A DNA stretch of 56,601 nucleotides from Acidobacteriota bacterium (GTDB lineage Bacteria; Acidobacteriota; Terriglobia; Terriglobales; Acidobacteriaceae). Below the pieces are notes generated by a model. That model worked only from the letters and a program-made list of their open reading frames with translations, was not told where the DNA came from and did not search any database. Below are positions 1-56,548 of the stretch, piece after piece (positions within the stretch are counted from its first letter, which is position 1; each line of letters opens with the position of its first letter). The DNA lies in contig QIBA01000063.1 in the NCBI GenBank assembly GCA_003225175.1, forward strand, positions 1 to 56,601, given 5' to 3'. A program made the translations under genes and the position numbers.

Positions 1-1025
<1,025 letters not shown>

Positions 1026-1537
1026 ATAAAATTAACTCGACCCACGGCAGTTCCTGCTCTCACCCGGATTCTCAACTCCGAATTTCTTCAGAATTGTCAT
1101 CCCGAGTGAAGCAACATGCTTGAGAAGCATGTTGCGAAGCCGAGGGATCTGCATTTCTGCAAACCACTGCGTCTTCCGCAATCGCCACCACACGCCGCGA
1201 AAATTTTATGAGCCTTAAACTCCCTGCTCATCGCGCGCTCGACTCTCTCAAGTCCCGCGCCCCAGCAGGTGTTTTCACTTTCTAGGCACTCATAAAAATT
1301 TACAGCCTTGTAGATTGCCCAATCTATTCAGTTGTCAAACATCGTCCTCGCTGAAACGTCATTGACGTTCAGCAATCCGCCTGAGCGGATCTGGGTTCAA
1401 GCTAGAAGCTAATAGCCAGAAGCTAGCAGCTGCTCTTCTCCAACCCAATGTTCGGCGCCACGCAACACTCTATTAGACCGTACTCGTTATACGTATGACG
1501 GTTGTCGCATGACGCCCAACATCAAGCTGGTTTAAAT
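1026..1537 (-). other. rRNA spacer between the small ORF and 23S
   Basis: This is transcribed spacer just upstream of 23S. It contains a long-range inverted repeat (1199-1214 AAAATTTTATGAG-like against 1283-1302 CTCATAAAAATTT-like) that could form a processing stem. It also holds a GTCATCCCGA repeat element at 1095-1152 with an AACATGCTT/AAGCATGTT hairpin, and a short-word stretch (agaagcta words) at 1400-1432. I see no further RNA gene or credible ORF. Confidence 0.6.
1095..1152. repeat. GTCATCCCGA...GGGATCTGC interspersed repeat
   Basis: The sequence GTCATCCCGAGTGAAGCAAC, a small hairpin (AACATGCTTG/AAGCATGTT) and GCCGAGGGATCTGC form one unit. The same beginning and end recur at 23968-24064, where the unit is inverted and doubled. 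Repeats of this wording are common in intergenic DNA of several phyla. Its presence inside the rRNA spacer is unusual. Confidence 0.6.
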
Positions 1538-1690
1538 TTACCGATGCGGCGTGTCGGGATCAATCCCGCGCTCAATCTTGGCGATCCGCTCCTGATGCCG
1601 AAGCACGAGAATCACAATCGCAATTACTCCGCCGACAATCACGGAAACAATCGGTATCAGTAACCCGCGCAATTCCAGTATCGATTCCAT
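1538..1690 (-). CDS. Small single-pass membrane protein encoded inside the rRNA operon spacer
   Basis: This 50-residue frame starts at ATG 1690 with GGAGAG six nt upstream and ends at TAA 1538-1540. Residues 1-10 are short and amphipathic (MESILELRG). About 11-30 are a strongly hydrophobic helix (LIPIVSVIVGG and AIVILVL). The tail is charged and ends near RIAKIERGIDP. That tail, following one TM helix, resembles the small DUF6249-type membrane proteins, whose function is unknown. The gene lies between tRNA-Ala and 23S in the direction of rRNA transcription, so it should be on the primary rRNA transcript. The combination of an SD, one TM helix and a family-like tail makes a chance frame unlikely. 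I infer that it is translated, either from the precursor or from its own promoter. Confidence 0.7.
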   Translation of the reverse strand: MESILELRGLLIPIVSVIVGGVIAIVILVLRHQERIAKIERGIDPDTPHR

Positions 1691-1752
1691 CCAACTCTCC
1701 GATACCCTTGATTGAAGCCGACGACCGAAGGCCGACGACCAACGACAGATTC

Positions 1753-1828
1753 TGGTGGAGCTGACCGGGATCGAACCGGTGGCCTCCTGGTTGCAAACCA
1801 GGCGCTCTCCCAGCTGAGCTACAGCCCC
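1753..1828 (-). tRNA. tRNA-Ala (TGC)
   Basis: The minus strand gives a complete 76-nt cloverleaf beginning GGGGCTGTAGCTCAGCTGGG, with anticodon loop TTTGCAA (anticodon TGC), T-arm GGTTCGATCC and an encoded CCA end. It sits in the usual 16S-Ile-Ala-23S position. Confidence 0.97.
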
Positions 1829-1832
1829 ACAA

Positions 1833-1905
1833 CAAGTTTCAAAGTTTCACGTTTTCAAAGTTTCATGGCTTTTGAAACCTTCGAAACTTTGCCACCTTGA
1901 AACCT
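1833..1905. repeat. Short-word inverted repeat between the two tRNAs
   Basis: Tandem words CAAAGTTTCA occur on the left (two copies) and their complement (TGAAAC, GAAACTTTG) on the right, so the 73-nt spacer can fold as one imperfect hairpin. It belongs to the short-word palindromes seen throughout the window. In the rRNA transcript it would lie exactly between tRNA-Ile and tRNA-Ala. Confidence 0.6.
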
Positions 1906-1911
1906 GATCTT

Positions 1912-1988
1912 TGGTGGGCCTGGATAGACTTGAACTATCGACCTCACCCTTATCAGGGGTGCGCTCTAGCCACCTGAGCTACAGGCCC
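1912..1988 (-). tRNA. tRNA-Ile (GAT)
   Basis: The minus strand gives a complete 77-nt tRNA beginning GGGCCTGTAGCTCAGGTGGC, with anticodon GAT in loop CTGATAA, T-arm GTTCAAGTC and encoded CCA. It is the first tRNA downstream of 16S in the spacer. Confidence 0.97.
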
Positions 1989-3886
<1,898 letters not shown>

Positions 3887-17771: not shown

Positions 17772-18278
17772 CTAACCGACCAACGACTGAGCAGACGGCG
17801 CCAGTCGCTCGAGAACTTCCATTACATCCTGATTGTCAGGCGATTCGCCAAGTTCATAGAGTTGAGCGAAGACGATCTTGCCCGTCTTGTCGATCACGTA
17901 GATAGCCCGTTCGTTGATTCCCGGAATAGGATCGCCTTCGCGGAAGACGCCGTATTTCCGCGCTATCTCGCCGTGGGGATAGAAGTCGCTCAGCAGGGGG
18001 TAGTTCAGCTTGCCGATTTCTTTTTCCTGCCACGCGATGTGGCTCCAGGTGGAGTCAACGCTAATGCCCATGACCTGGGCATCGTAGGCGGCGAACTTGT
18101 CGAGTTCTCGACTGTACGCCGTCATCTGCTCGGTTCACGTGGGTGTCCAATCCAGCGGATAGAAGGCGAGCACAACGTTCTTCTTGCCGCGGAAGTCGCT
18201 CAGGCGCACTTTATGACGCCGGTCGCCCGTGACCGCTGGAAGTTCGAAATCCGGAGCCGCACTGCCAACTGAAAGCAC
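17772..18278 (-). CDS. Selenocysteine-containing peroxiredoxin (AhpC/TSA fold), TGA at the catalytic position
   Basis: The frame opens at GTG 18278 (GGAGG 6 nt upstream) and ends at 17772. It is 168 residues with one in-frame TGA at 18137-18135 (codon 48). It reads [18 protein letters not shown], exactly where TPxC places the peroxidatic Cys. The fold is otherwise intact: [14 protein letters not shown], the VVLAF strand, [19 protein letters not shown] and the conserved Arg in NERAIYVID. There is no other Cys, so this is a one-catalytic-residue (1-Sec) type. Eubacterium acidaminophilum PrxU carries Sec at the equivalent site. Downstream of the TGA is a stable hairpin, and selA lies at 55094. 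I infer Sec insertion by SelB; a nonsense mutation of TGC is the alternative. It would reduce H2O2 or alkyl hydroperoxides in the cytosol. Confidence 0.85.
18090..18120 (-). promoter_or_regulatory. Candidate bacterial SECIS hairpin
   Basis: In the mRNA, 14 nt after the UGA, a 31-nt stem-loop forms. The lower stem GGCGUAC/GUUCGCC is seven pairs with one U-U mismatch. Then comes a small A/AA internal loop, a perfect upper stem GUCGA/UCGAC and a GAAC loop. The loop begins 27 nt after the UGA and its first base is G, as expected of bacterial SECIS elements. It lies inside the coding sequence, as bacterial SECIS must. Confidence 0.65.
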
Positions 18279-18348
18279 TACTTTCCTCCGCTCTTACGAG
18301 CTTGCCTGACCTTGGCTATTTTGGGAACCCGGCAGGTGGGATAGGTAA

Positions 18349-42761: not shown

Positions 42762-45700
42762 TCAAGGAACCGCGACCCCACTTGAAACCGTGGATAACGT
42801 GCTCTCCGTCCCACTCGTATCCACCGCAGTCAACGCGTAGTAATACGTCTGCCCTGAAGAGACCGTTGCATCTGGGTATGTAAGCCCACTGATTCCAGCA
42901 GCGATGCGCGTGAAATTAGCCGGCTGGGCTTGCACACATGCTGTGGCTGATGTTCCGCAACGATAAACGTTGTAAGTAACGCTGGGAGTCGTGCTGGCGT
43001 TCCAGGCGAGCGTCACGTTCGCCAAACCCCTCCCTGACAGCGACGGAGCCACGCTGTTGATGTTGCTGGCGAACGTCACCATTCCCGTAGCTGGTCCTGG
43101 TGAGCCCGACGCGGGTGCAAACGTCACGTTGATTTGCATGCTTTGACCGGCGGCGATCGTCATCGGCATGCTGGGCCCAGCGCTGATTGCGAATGCACCG
43201 CCTCCGCCACCGCTTTGCACGATGCTGTCGGAGTTAACTGTGACGCTGTTTCCTACAGCATTGAGCGTGAATGCCAGGGGAGGACTCGTACTACCGTCGG
43301 CCACGTTGCCGAAAGTCAGGCTGGCAGGAGTAACTGTGAGTCCGGCGCCGGTTCCAGCGAGGTTCGCCGTCGCCAGAGGCGTCGTTCCGTTATTCAGAGA
43401 CAGAGAACCCGAGGCGCTGCCCGTGGCCGTCGGAGCGAAGGTAACGGGAACAACCGCGCTCTTTCCAGAAGCGATTGTGACTGGAAAAGTAATTCCGCTC
43501 ACTCCAAATCCGGCGCCTGTGACTGTGGCGGCGGTGAGTGTCACATCTCCGCCTGCTGCGCTCAAGATCGCCTGGATTTGTCCGGTTGACCCGAGGTTGA
43601 CATTCCCAAAACTGAAACTCGAGGGACTCAACGAAGGCCTGCCGCCTGCGGTTGTGAAGTTCAGCCCGGCTACATTTGCATTGTTCACTGTGGCGGACAG
43701 GCTCAGTGGAACAAAGCTATAGGAACTGTTCTGAGGTGTGATGGTGTAAGCGCCATTCGCCAGGACTGTGAACGTATAGTTGCCGTTTAGATCAGGTGTA
43801 GTGGTGGCACTAGCCGCTCCACTCAGCGTGATTGTGGTGCCGGCACTTGCAGCTGCGCTGACGGTGCCTGAAATGCTTGCCGTGGCTGAAATGGTCATGC
43901 TGCCGGCGATGTTTCCTACCGAGGCGGAAATTGTCGATTGACCAACGCCCGCGGCTGTTGCCATGGCGCTTGTATCGAGGCTGACTGCGGCCGAATCGGA
44001 AGAAACCCAGACCGCGGAACTGGTTACGTTCTGCGTGCTGCCGTCGCTGAAAGTTCCGGTTGCACTGAGCTGCTCGTTGGATCCTATCGCGAGTGATGCG
44101 CTCTTTCCGATAACCGCGATCGATTGCATTGCGGCGGCGGTCACTGTCAGCCCGAAGCTGTTGGAGGCAATGCTGCTCTGGGTTGCGGTGATGTTGGCAG
44201 TGCCGATAGCTACGCCGGTCGCAAGACCACCAGCGCTGATGTTGGCAATGGACGGACTCGAACTCGCCCAGGTCACAGCATTCGTGAGGTTCTGGCTGGT
44301 GCCGTCGCTGAACGTTCCAGTCGCCGTGAACTGGACGCTGGTGCCTTTAGCGATCGAAGAGCTGCTTGCATTGATCGCGATGGATTGCAATACCGCCGCA
44401 GTCACAGACAAGGCGACGCTGTTTGATGTAACTCCATCTTGCGTAGCAGTGATATTGCTGGTGCCGATCGCGACACCACTGACAAGACCTGTCGCGCTGA
44501 CGTTGGCAACCGCTGAATTCGAGCTGTTCCAGGTAGCGGCGCCGGCCAGGCTCTGGGTACTGCCGTCGCTGAAGGTTCCGGTTGCGGTGAACTGAACGCT
44601 CGTGCCTTTGGCGATGGAAACGGCGGACGCGCTGATAGTGATCGATTGCAGCGCGGCTGCGGTTATCGTGAGAGGAAAAGTGTTGGACACAACTCCATTT
44701 TGTGTGGCAGTGATGCTGCTGGTGCCGATGGCCTCTCCGGTCGCCAGGCCGCTTGCGCTGATATTCACTGTCGCCGGAGTCGAACTCATCCAGGTGGCGG
44801 TGCTGGTGAGGTTCTGTGTAGTTCCATCACTGAAGGTTCCCGTCGCTGCGAACTGAACGCTCGTGCCTTTCGCGACCGAGGAACTGCTCGCCGTGATGGC
44901 GATCGATTGCAGCGTGGCTGCCGTTACTGCCAGCGCGAAGCTATTCGAAGTAATCCCGTTTTGGGCTGCAGTGATGTTGCTCGACCCGATGGCCATGGCG
45001 CTCGCTAATCCGCCGGCGTTTATGCTCACAACCGCCGTAGCCGAGCTCGTCCATGTGGCCGTATTCGTAAGGTCCTGAGTACTGCCGTCGCTGAACGTTC
45101 CTGTAGCCGTGAACTGAACTGTTGTGCCTTTCGCAATGGAAGAACTGCCGGCGTTAATTGTGATCGACTGCAGGATGGCAGCGGTCACGCTAAGCGGAAA
45201 GCTGTTGGAGGTGATTCCATTCTGGGTCGCGGTGATGTTGCTGGTCCCGAGCGCGACACCGGTGGCCAGGCCCGTCATGTTCACTGTGGCAATCGCCTGA
45301 TTTGAAGTCGACCACGTGGCGGTGTTGCTGAGGTCCTGTGTACTGCCATCGCTGAACGTTCCGGTAGCCGTGAACTGAAGGGTTGTGCCTTTGGCAATCG
45401 ATGAACTGCCGGCATTGATCTTGATCGACTGCAGTATGGCCGGAGTGATTGTCAGGAGCACGGTGTTGGAAGTAATCCCATTTTGGGTCGCGGTGATGTT
45501 CGCCGAACCGATCGCAAGGCCACTCGCGAGGCCAGCGGAGCTGATATTGGCTATGGCTGGACTTGAGCTCGTCCATGTGACGTTGTTCGTCAGGTTCTGT
45601 GTGCTGCCGTCGCTGTAGGTTCCTGTGGCTGTGAATTGAACGCTTGTTCCTTTCGCCATGGAAGAGTTGGTGGCGTTAATGGTGATCGATTGCAGAGTGG

Positions 45701-54672: not shown

Positions 54673-55164
54673 ATGGCCGCATCAACTGCTAATGCCTTTG
54701 TCCAGCCGAATGGAAACTTTCAACCCGAGGTCCGGGAGTATCCGAAAAAGATCGTTATCCGTTCTCAGAATCGAATCTTTCTTCAGACGGTCTGCGAGAT
54801 CGACCACCTCTCGGCCGCCGCTAACTACGTGCAAATCCATAGCAACGGCCAGAGTTTTCGCATCCGTTCGACGATCAACGCGATCGAACAGCGTCTCGAT
54901 CCAAAGAAATTCGGGCGCGTTCATCGTTGCACCATCGTGAACTTCGATTTCGTAAAGGAGTTCCAACCGCTGCAGCGGGGCGATTACCTGCTCGTGCTCA
55001 ACGATGGGAGTCAGCTGAAGATGAGCCGGCGCCATCGCGATCAACTCGAAAAGCTGGCTTGTCTGTCCAGTAATCATCTGGTGAAATACGGGAGTGCCGG
55101 CAACGAAAATACAGGATTTGCTTCGGCAAATCCCATCTGTGGACGAGGTTCTTCGCTCGTCTAG
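54673..55164 (+). CDS. LytTR-domain DNA-binding protein
   Basis: 163 residues from ATG 54673 (GAGG just upstream; TTG 54640 is possible). It is a bare LytTR domain with no receiver, at about 28-125: KKIVIRSQNRIFLQTVCEID, LSAAANYVQIHSNGQSFRI, FGRVHRCTIVNFDFVKEFQP and LNDGSQLKMSRRHRDQL. The 30-residue tail after the domain overlaps selA by 71 nt and looks non-functional. Because it overlaps selA in the same orientation, the two are probably cotranscribed, possibly with translational coupling. Confidence 0.85.
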   Translation: MAASTANAFVQPNGNFQPEVREYPKKIVIRSQNRIFLQTVCEIDHLSAAANYVQIHSNGQSFRIRSTINAIEQRLDPKKFGRVHRCTIVNFDFVKEFQPLQRGDYLLVLNDGSQLKMSRRHRDQLEKLACLSSNHLVKYGSAGNENTGFASANPICGRGSSLV

Positions 55165-56548
55165 TCTGACAGGTGCATTGCGGCGTGAGGGCCGTGCCGC
55201 CACGAGCGACGCGGTCCGAACCGTTCTTGAGCGCCTACGTCGTGAGATCACGGCCGGCGGCCTCGATGAAATCGCAATTCAGATCGCAGTAGAAGGAATT
55301 CCAGAAGCTGTTGAGCGCGAGCTGCGGCGATCTCTTGATTACTCTCTGCGCAGAGTAATCAACGCTACCGGCGTCATTCTCCATACGAACCTTGGACGCG
55401 CGCCTCTCTCCCAGGAAACGATCGAACATCTTTCGGAGATCGCGACTGGTTATTCCAATTTGGAATTCGACTTAGTCACGGGCGAACGTGGACGTCGCGA
55501 TGTGCACGTGCAGCGTCTCCTGGATCTCCTGCTCGCGGATCATCACTACGAAGACACCGAGAATTCCACTCCTGAGGCGATCGTCGTAAACAACTGTGCT
55601 GCTGCAGTATTGCTCGCGCTCAACGCGCTGGCAGAGGGTGGCGACGTCATCGTCTCGCGCGGTGAGCTAGTGGAGATCGGCGGTTCGTTTCGCGTGCCCG
55701 ACGTGATGGCCAAATCGGGTGCGCGGCTTCGTGAAGTGGGCACTACAAACCGCACGCGCCTCTCGGACTACGAGAGGGCTATTACCGAGAACACGCGTCT
55801 GCTGCTTCGTGTACATCGCTCAAATTTCGCGATGATCGGGTTTACTGAGCAACCTGCATCCCAGGAGCTTGTTGAGTTAGGCCGCAGCCGCGGAATTCCT
55901 GTAATGGAAGATCTCGGTAACGGTTTGCTGGTAGATCTCGCGAGTGCCGGCGTCCAAGGCGAATATGGACTGCACGAGAGTCTGCGCGCCGGTGTTGACG
56001 TAGTCTGCGTCAGTGGAGACAAGCTGCTTGGGGGTCCGCAAGCGGGCGTAGTCGCCGGACGGAGAGAGCTCATCAAGCGTATTCGTGCCAACCCGTTGTT
56101 CCGAGCGCTGCGTGTCGACAAATTGACTTACGCGGCGCTTGAGTCGACGCTGCTCGCTTACGTAAAGCGAGATTATTCGGCGATTCCTGCTTTGCGCATG
56201 ATCTATACACCGAGGTCTGAGATTCGCAGCCGCGCTCAATCTTTCGTCGCGCGCCTTAGCTCGATACCGGGGGTGCATGCCGAAATCGCCGAAGGAAAAT
56301 CACTGATTGGCGGGGGAACCGCGCCGACAGCCACTCTTCCAACGTTCCTGGTTGCCCTTACTTCGGACCATCACACAAGCGAACAACTCTTAAGCCGGCT
56401 TCGCTCGCAATTGCCACCTGTGATTGCCAGGATTGAAGACGATCGGCTCGTATTAGACCTGCGAACCGTGTTTACAGAGGATGACAACGCCACGGCGGCG
56501 GCGCTCGCAGCCACAACGGCGCAACCATCCCCGGCTGTATCGAAGTAG
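55094..56548 (+). CDS. selA: L-seryl-tRNA(Sec) selenium transferase
   Basis: SelA converts seryl-tRNA(Sec) to selenocysteinyl-tRNA(Sec) with selenophosphate, using PLP; it is a homodecamer in E. coli. 484 residues from GTG 55094, as expected. Signatures: N-terminal LLRQIPSVDEVLRSS, RRVINATGVILHTNLGRAPL, VVNNCAAAVLLALNA, SRGELVEIGG, and the PLP Lys K310 in CVSGDKLLGGPQAG. Its presence shows that the organism can make Sec and supports the peroxiredoxin at 17772 as a selenoprotein. selB, selC and selD are outside the window. The start overlaps the LytTR gene. The end overlaps the next gene (TAGTG). Confidence 0.96.
   Translation: MPATKIQDLLRQIPSVDEVLRSSSLTGALRREGRAATSDAVRTVLERLRREITAGGLDEIAIQIAVEGIPEAVERELRRSLDYSLRRVINATGVILHTNLGRAPLSQETIEHLSEIATGYSNLEFDLVTGERGRRDVHVQRLLDLLLADHHYEDTENSTPEAIVVNNCAAAVLLALNALAEGGDVIVSRGELVEIGGSFRVPDVMAKSGARLREVGTTNRTRLSDYERAITENTRLLLRVHRSNFAMIGFTEQPASQELVELGRSRGIPVMEDLGNGLLVDLASAGVQGEYGLHESLRAGVDVVCVSGDKLLGGPQAGVVAGRRELIKRIRANPLFRALRVDKLTYAALESTLLAYVKRDYSAIPALRMIYTPRSEIRSRAQSFVARLSSIPGVHAEIAEGKSLIGGGTAPTATLPTFLVALTSDHHTSEQLLSRLRSQLPPVIARIEDDRLVLDLRTVFTEDDNATAAALAATTAQPSPAVSK

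Follow-up and report, generated by a model that had tools for sequence, protein, structure and literature searches.

The window studied here, a whole stretch of 56,601 nucleotides of acidobacterial DNA, carries a gene which very probably encodes a selenocysteine (Sec)-inserting peroxiredoxin with peroxidase function, as judged from its sequence. The original prediction had read the gene as a Sec-peroxiredoxin. We found support for this reading, as the Sec machinery is present in the genome, the in-frame TGA and the frame downstream of it are conserved and the SECIS hairpin behind the TGA covaries. Therefore we consider it a selenoprotein gene and not a pseudogene, and we infer its decoding as Sec strongly.

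The gene and its signals were located as follows.
17772 to 18278, minus strand: predicted Sec-peroxiredoxin gene, 168 amino acids plus TAG stop, GTG start
18135 to 18137, minus strand: in-frame TGA, codon 48, at the peroxidatic (TxxU) position
18285 to 18289, minus strand: Shine-Dalgarno-like GGAGG, 6 nt before the GTG, read from the sequence, the same in homologous locus L018
18348 to 18376, minus strand: sigma-70-like site TTGAAG-17-TAAAAT, 9 of 12 matches, pattern match only

The frame, for which no strand had been given before, runs on the minus strand from a GTG start at 18278 to a TAG ending at 17772 and is broken by one TGA. The active-site motif reads DWTPT-U-TEQM, where U stands for the in-frame TGA codon. 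The Pfam AhpC-TSA model matched residues 4-137 with 123.7 bits (cut-off 26), and the match runs across the TGA. An AhpC/TSA frame intact but for one TGA, placed at codon 48 in the peroxidatic position of a protein with no other Cys, was what the original prediction described, and each of these points was borne out; the cysteine count in the 168 residues is 0. The predicted Shine-Dalgarno sequence was found as well. The promoter claim holds as far as a sigma-70-like site is present, matched by pattern only. A terminator scan found none. The protein has no visible signal peptide, by which we take it to be cytoplasmic. In NCBIfam 13 models matched the protein, 0 of them at or above their own cut-off, and a PHROGs search gave one family without known function and, weakly, a peroxiredoxin.

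In the short flanks compared (mostly about 1.5 kb per side) the three largest clusters of frames gave no neighbour conserved across the family. The peroxiredoxin's own cluster held 41 loci and the next two held 34 and 28 loci; judged by the longest member of each, which spans the TGA, these two are frames overlapping the peroxiredoxin. The remaining clusters hold at most 14 loci each. An rRNA operon (16S, tRNA-Ile, tRNA-Ala and part of 23S) lies at positions 1-3886 of the window on the minus strand.

We searched 61 genomes (the gene's own and 60 relatives) for peroxiredoxin matches at E <= 1e-15 and found them in 56. Whether TGA or a Cys codon occupies position 48 in homologues had been named as a check, and both occur: among 94 aligned loci there were 36 with TGA, 56 with TGT or TGC, many of these being distant thioredoxin-like relatives, and 2 with other codons, which are poor alignments. 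In the closer loci L017-L057 (n = 41) TGA was found 36 times and Cys 5 times; the TGA loci L047-L050, identical in the hairpin stretch to L020-L023, are probably repeats of the same species. All 5 other same-genus genomes searched have TGA at codon 48. The TGA further occurs in the Bacillota genera Ammoniphilus and Anaerobacillus, with the isolate Anaerobacillus arseniciselenatis DSM 15340 among them, in Anaerolineales and SAR202 (Chloroflexota) and in Zixibacteria. When 297 genomes spread over the phylum were surveyed, 15 gave a match at E <= 1e-40 and 12 of these had an in-frame TGA, counted anywhere in the match and not tied to codon 48; the position was established codon by codon for the 94 aligned loci only. 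In 4 of 4 same-genus pairs tested, dN/dS was 0.05-0.15 before the TGA and 0.05-0.13 after it.

These values bear on two other readings of the gene. A TGA inside an ordinary peroxiredoxin frame resembles a nonsense mutation, and both TGC and TGT are one base away from it, so that the gene could be taken for a pseudogene whose Cys codon mutated to a stop and which is now decaying. We find this hardly credible, as the TGA is shared by the 5 same-genus genomes and by several phyla, the cultured A. arseniciselenatis included, purifying selection acts 3' of it, the SECIS covaries and the genome holds the Sec machinery. Close relatives with a Cys codon and a decaying downstream frame, which would speak against a Sec-peroxiredoxin, were not what we observed: the TGA is kept and the frame is conserved. 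The other reading is that only a 117-residue product from 18125 is made, the 5' part being a leader or a separate short peptide. This product coincides with the ORF under translation table 11, which does begin at 18125, as had been expected of automatic callers. It begins at residue 52, so that the peroxidatic residue is missing from it, as are the initial strands of the fold. Further, there is no GGAGG before the 18125 start, the AhpC-TSA match extends from residue 4 on, and the 5' part is conserved in frame in the 4 pairs, which makes the short product extremely improbable. As standard annotation would truncate the gene, a means of peroxide defence in this acidobacterial lineage is easily overlooked.

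Downstream of the TGA lies the putative signal for Sec insertion.
18089 to 18121, minus strand: bacterial SECIS-like hairpin, loop GAAC at 18107-18104, fold -15.6 kcal/mol

RNA folding after the TGA had been proposed as a check, and the hairpin 18121-18089 did fold at the energy given above. Pairing begins with the 14th base behind the TGA, in agreement with the predicted position, but its length is 33 nt and not the 31 nt claimed. The lower stem is CGGCG...CGCCG and the upper stem GUCGA/UCGAC. The loop starts with G 27 nt after the TGA, within the SECIS range, also as predicted. For bacterial SECIS elements the available part of PMC13188914 gives an apical loop of 3-9 nt, an upper stem of 4-16 bp, G in the first two loop positions, 16-37 nt from the UGA and an MFE of at most -7.5. 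The present hairpin has a loop of 4 nt with G first, a stem of 5 bp, a distance of 27 nt and -15.6 kcal/mol, and SelB binding is predicted for it. The commoner loop start is GG or GU (PMC13188914), whereas the window's loop starts with GA. The fold of the lone hairpin is modest (z = -1.96 against shuffles, 6 of 200 shuffles as good).

We aligned the hairpins of 31 TGA genes. All Cys loci were dropped. So was L022, whose 5' end is cut off by the contig edge and whose 54 nt equal those of L017, and so were L047-L050, which repeat the 54 nt of L020, L021, L022 and L023. The covariation score was 0.246 compared with 0.121 in shuffled alignments, and 0 of 500 shuffles were as high. The named structure paired 69.4% of cells, against 29-43% for slid versions. 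Two other measures were less clear: double-sided changes were seen in 9 pairs, a value reached in 76 of 500 shuffles and exceeded in one slide (+2, 10 pairs), and there were 24 further pair types, a value reached in 17 of 500. Pairing was kept despite change as GGCG/CGCC in Acidobacteriota, UUCA/UGAA in Anaerobacillus and GGCA/UGCC in L025. Cys homologues keep the protein frame but have fewer hairpin pairs: the lower helix was paired in 153 of 186 cells in the 31 TGA loci and in 23 of 60 cells in 10 Cys loci (Mann-Whitney p = 2e-5), a comparison biased in that the structure was drawn from TGA genes and the Cys side covers 10 of the 56 Cys loci.

Not every member follows the consensus. Scored in the register of the consensus, none of the 4 apical pairs forms in the window's gene, L018 or L020; in the window's gene this is due to a one-base shift of its own upper stem. 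No G stands at either of the two leading loop places inspected in L036, L055 and L056 (3 of the 31 TGA loci), and only 4-5 of the 12 hairpin pairs form in L038, L040 and L054. In all 4 same-genus pairs tested, synonymous divergence was lower over the 12 SECIS codons (0-0.62) than in the rest of the downstream part (0.94-1.30). By codon identity in windows along the gene, the SECIS stretch (0.72 and 0.67) does not stand out from other windows (0.76, 0.72 and 0.71). Alifold found no consensus on all 31 TGA loci jointly (0.0). For the same-genus set of 5 genomes the signal was weak (as low a value came up in 11 of 300 column shuffles), and windows at downstream offsets 24 and 42 folded better there than the SECIS window. 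In the 20-genome family set the value was -5.47 (0 of 300 shuffles), with a window 60 nt downstream near it at -5.09. A covariance model built from the 31 hairpins (R1) was run on the genome, with 150 of 2585 candidates scored, and at a meaningful score returned only the gene's own hairpin, which is one of the training rows. The matches that followed had E of 0.48 and 0.62, and the other TGA genes of the genome were not found. As the model recovers only its own gene, it is blind to the SECIS of other families and gives no selenoprotein count.

A gene of the Sec apparatus, absent from the original prediction, lies in the same window, 37 kb from the peroxiredoxin gene, and is trans-acting.
55094 to 56548, plus strand: selA, selenocysteine synthase, TIGR00474 554 bits (cut-off 268), Pfam SelA 446.9 bits

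The genome had further been proposed to be checked for selB, selC and selD, and all of them were detected over curated cut-offs: tRNA-Sec (selC) on contig 44 (anticodon TCA, 64.4 bits), selB on contig 30 (377 bits) and selD on contig 38 (371 bits). In 14 control genomes the cut-offs were reached by tRNA-Sec in 5, selB in 2, selA in 1 and selD in 2. TGA-bearing peroxiredoxin matches, whether to the present peroxiredoxin or to a paralogue, go with selB: 35 of the 48 genomes in which selB exceeds its cut-off have one, as do 2 of the other 13 (p = 2.7e-4). The two exceptions are G034, in which tRNA-Sec exceeds its cut-off, and G029, a 75% complete genome in which a search for tRNA-Sec found none.

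With this apparatus at hand we can weigh a third reading, in which a suppressor tRNA or plain read-through puts Cys, Trp or another residue, and not Sec, at the UGA. Cys is indeed the alternative residue at codon 48 in homologues, and odd tRNAs (allo-tRNAs) have been reported from Acidobacteria (PMC7609411, in the part available). We nevertheless hold this very unlikely, given that tRNA-Sec with anticodon TCA, selA, selB and selD are all present, that TGA-bearing peroxiredoxins track selB across the 61 genomes, that a covarying hairpin stands at SECIS distance, and that this genome holds three more genes with TGA at redox positions (selD with AGUASK, a UPPC glutaredoxin and an exported TGGU peroxiredoxin). 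The pseudogene, suppressor and short-ORF readings were rejected on TGA conservation, Sec machinery and the conserved 5' frame. For the Sec-peroxiredoxin that we favour, SelB with Sec-tRNA-Sec would bind the hairpin and insert Sec at the UGA, giving the 168-residue protein.

We also recorded the TGA-bearing genes of this genome in their own right. selD is one of them, its TGA lying in AGUASK (L115, within 1201-2568, plus strand). A second peroxiredoxin, of exported type, begins with a stretch resembling a signal peptide and has AFTGGU as its active-site motif (L113, from 5426 downwards on the minus strand; match at 43437-43823 of the own contig 66). Lower-scoring peroxiredoxin matches with one TGA, counted anywhere in the match, recur in many relatives among the 61 genomes. 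With such a set of TGA redox genes in one genome (two peroxiredoxins, a glutaredoxin and selD) one can ask what advantage selenium brings to a peroxidase free of Cys, and by what route its oxidised Sec is regenerated when there is no resolving cysteine.

The AlphaFold model of the peroxiredoxin (mean pLDDT 95.3, pTM 0.90) places residue 48 near the start of helix 46-57. The best 50 of 1365 Foldseek matches were all peroxiredoxins by title, counting 6j13, which is titled 'Redox protein' but was named 2-Cys peroxiredoxin in the PDB chain sequence search. None of the 41 aligned rows varies at position 48 or at Arg124, with Sec and Cys alike entered as C. The third residue before Sec is Thr, and T or S stands there in L017-L071. 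Attack of the Cys on peroxide is established for the peroxiredoxin family. By analogy, the Sec selenol at the start of the helix, together with Thr45 and Arg124, would attack the peroxide and become selenenic acid.

Oxidised Sec needs an outside thiol or selenol, since the protein has no resolving cysteine. One gene of the own genome is for a glutaredoxin of 79 residues in which a TGA takes the first place of the active site (UPPC; L120, 1456-1692, minus strand), and there are two further glutaredoxin-family matches over cut-off, both without TGA. The UPPC glutaredoxin gave 24 matches in the 61 genomes, 22 of them with TGA. We compared its distribution with that of the peroxiredoxin (cut at 180 bits) in 29 of 37 same-family genomes, namely 28 with selB over cut-off and G034 with tRNA-Sec. 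UPPC-type glutaredoxin was present in 20 of 23 of these Sec-trait genomes with the peroxiredoxin and in 0 of 6 without it (p = 1.8e-4). With one genome per genus the counts were 15 of 18 and 0 of 6 (p = 6e-4), and on all 37 genomes the table read 20, 3, 1 and 13. The test is correlative, with shared ancestry still in it, and the cut leaves out G018, which has a Cys form at 168.8 bits and no glutaredoxin match. In two Anaerolineales (L055, 2989-3741, plus strand; L056, 2989-3753, plus strand) the Sec-peroxiredoxin is fused to a C-terminal glutaredoxin domain, scoring 48.1 and 45.0 bits (cut-off 22.9). The AhpE peroxiredoxin of actinobacteria is reduced by mycoredoxin, a glutaredoxin homologue (PMC4360819).

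Co-occurrence, fusion and this precedent together favour a glutaredoxin-type reductant, and we lean slightly towards such a reduction step. A glutaredoxin-like protein would reduce the oxidised Sec, possibly with bacillithiol, as suggested by the co-occurrence, the distant domain fusion and bshC of bacillithiol synthesis in the own genome (289 bits, cut-off 27). It is possible instead that Sec is inserted and recycling is performed by thioredoxin, the glutaredoxin not being the partner, although we would not count this as probable. The best-scoring NCBIfam model, PrxU, is described as thioredoxin-dependent, and 3 of the 23 Sec-trait genomes have the peroxiredoxin without the glutaredoxin. On the other hand, the score of 91.5 bits is far under the cut-off of that model (270), the protein has no resolving Cys, and both the 20 of 23 against 0 of 6 distribution and the two Anaerolineales fusions point to glutaredoxin. 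Extending the glutaredoxin reading, we tentatively propose a selenium relay in soil bacteria, in which a Cys-free one-Sec peroxiredoxin may be recycled by a dedicated Sec-glutaredoxin (UPPC) with bacillithiol behind it, the free-standing pair of Acidobacteriota corresponding to the fused Anaerolineales protein. If true, peroxide would be reduced via Se-Se or Se-S intermediates between two selenoproteins.

We built a tree of 41 rows, which omits L022 and L047-L050 and takes L058, L059, L066, L070 and L071 of the 53 distant loci L058-L110. It needs 5 Sec/Cys label changes, at least 3 of them forced by well-supported branches. Cys rows L030, L037 and L041 are nested among Sec rows, and their genomes (G031, G014 and G018) all have selB and tRNA-Sec. 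The nesting reads as Sec-to-Cys replacement and does not prove it, the root being undecided, some joins weak and L041 a long branch. For peroxiredoxin, 5 Cys-to-Sec and 0 Sec-to-Cys events are given in the table of an early survey (PMC1794560, the part available). Cys forms among Sec forms, in genomes still with selB and tRNA-Sec, are natural comparisons. Family orthologues outside the genus (L023, L026-L029, L033-L036, L039 and L040) have a PLCSDF Cys 48 residues after Sec; it is absent from the window's gene and the same-genus rows and is a possible resolving residue in the others. In L073 and L077 (Blastocatellia, Pyrinomonadaceae) a TGA stands three residues before the aligned Cys (WUPFC and WUPYC), and these are likely UxxC-type selenoproteins.

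Sec-peroxiredoxin (TxxU, PF00578) is catalogued among families with tested members, with the PrxU work cited there (PMC13188914), and ranked second in size among the families of the Sargasso Sea survey (PMC1088965). PrxU of Eubacterium acidaminophilum, which the original prediction named as precedent, does belong to a known family with a tested member. In the accessible parts of the sources, a 2006 count gave Acidobacteria four selenoproteins belonging to three families (PMC1794560), and one Acidobacteriota genome with 3 selenoproteins served as a test in 2025 (PMC12013277). Among the titles and abstract openings listed by full-text literature searches, which cover few subscription papers and no supplementary files, none dealt with the acidobacterial gene or with a Sec-peroxiredoxin/Sec-glutaredoxin pair.

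With the PrxU family the present protein shares the AhpC/TSA domain, the Sec in TxxU and a bacterial SECIS downstream; Cys homologues at the codon and selA, selB, selC and selD are found as well. Set against the PrxU model NF040737, and not the PrxU sequence, it is shorter (168 aa against 233 positions) and scores below the cut-off, as given above. It differs from PrxU in having no Cys and in coming from Acidobacteriota. AhpE, the one-Cys actinobacterial enzyme, likewise has no resolving Cys and resembles it in fold (TM 0.84-0.86 by query, 0.92-0.93 by target, 36% identity), but has Cys where Sec is predicted here. By sequence the top-scoring PDB chain is a 2-Cys peroxiredoxin (97.6 against 88.2 bits for AhpE), both classes scoring alike. 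Prx-like selenoproteins are distant homologues of peroxiredoxin and carry UxxC, where TxxU stands here (PMC1088965). In summary, the enzyme kind is already known, and its partnership with a Sec-glutaredoxin is possibly new.
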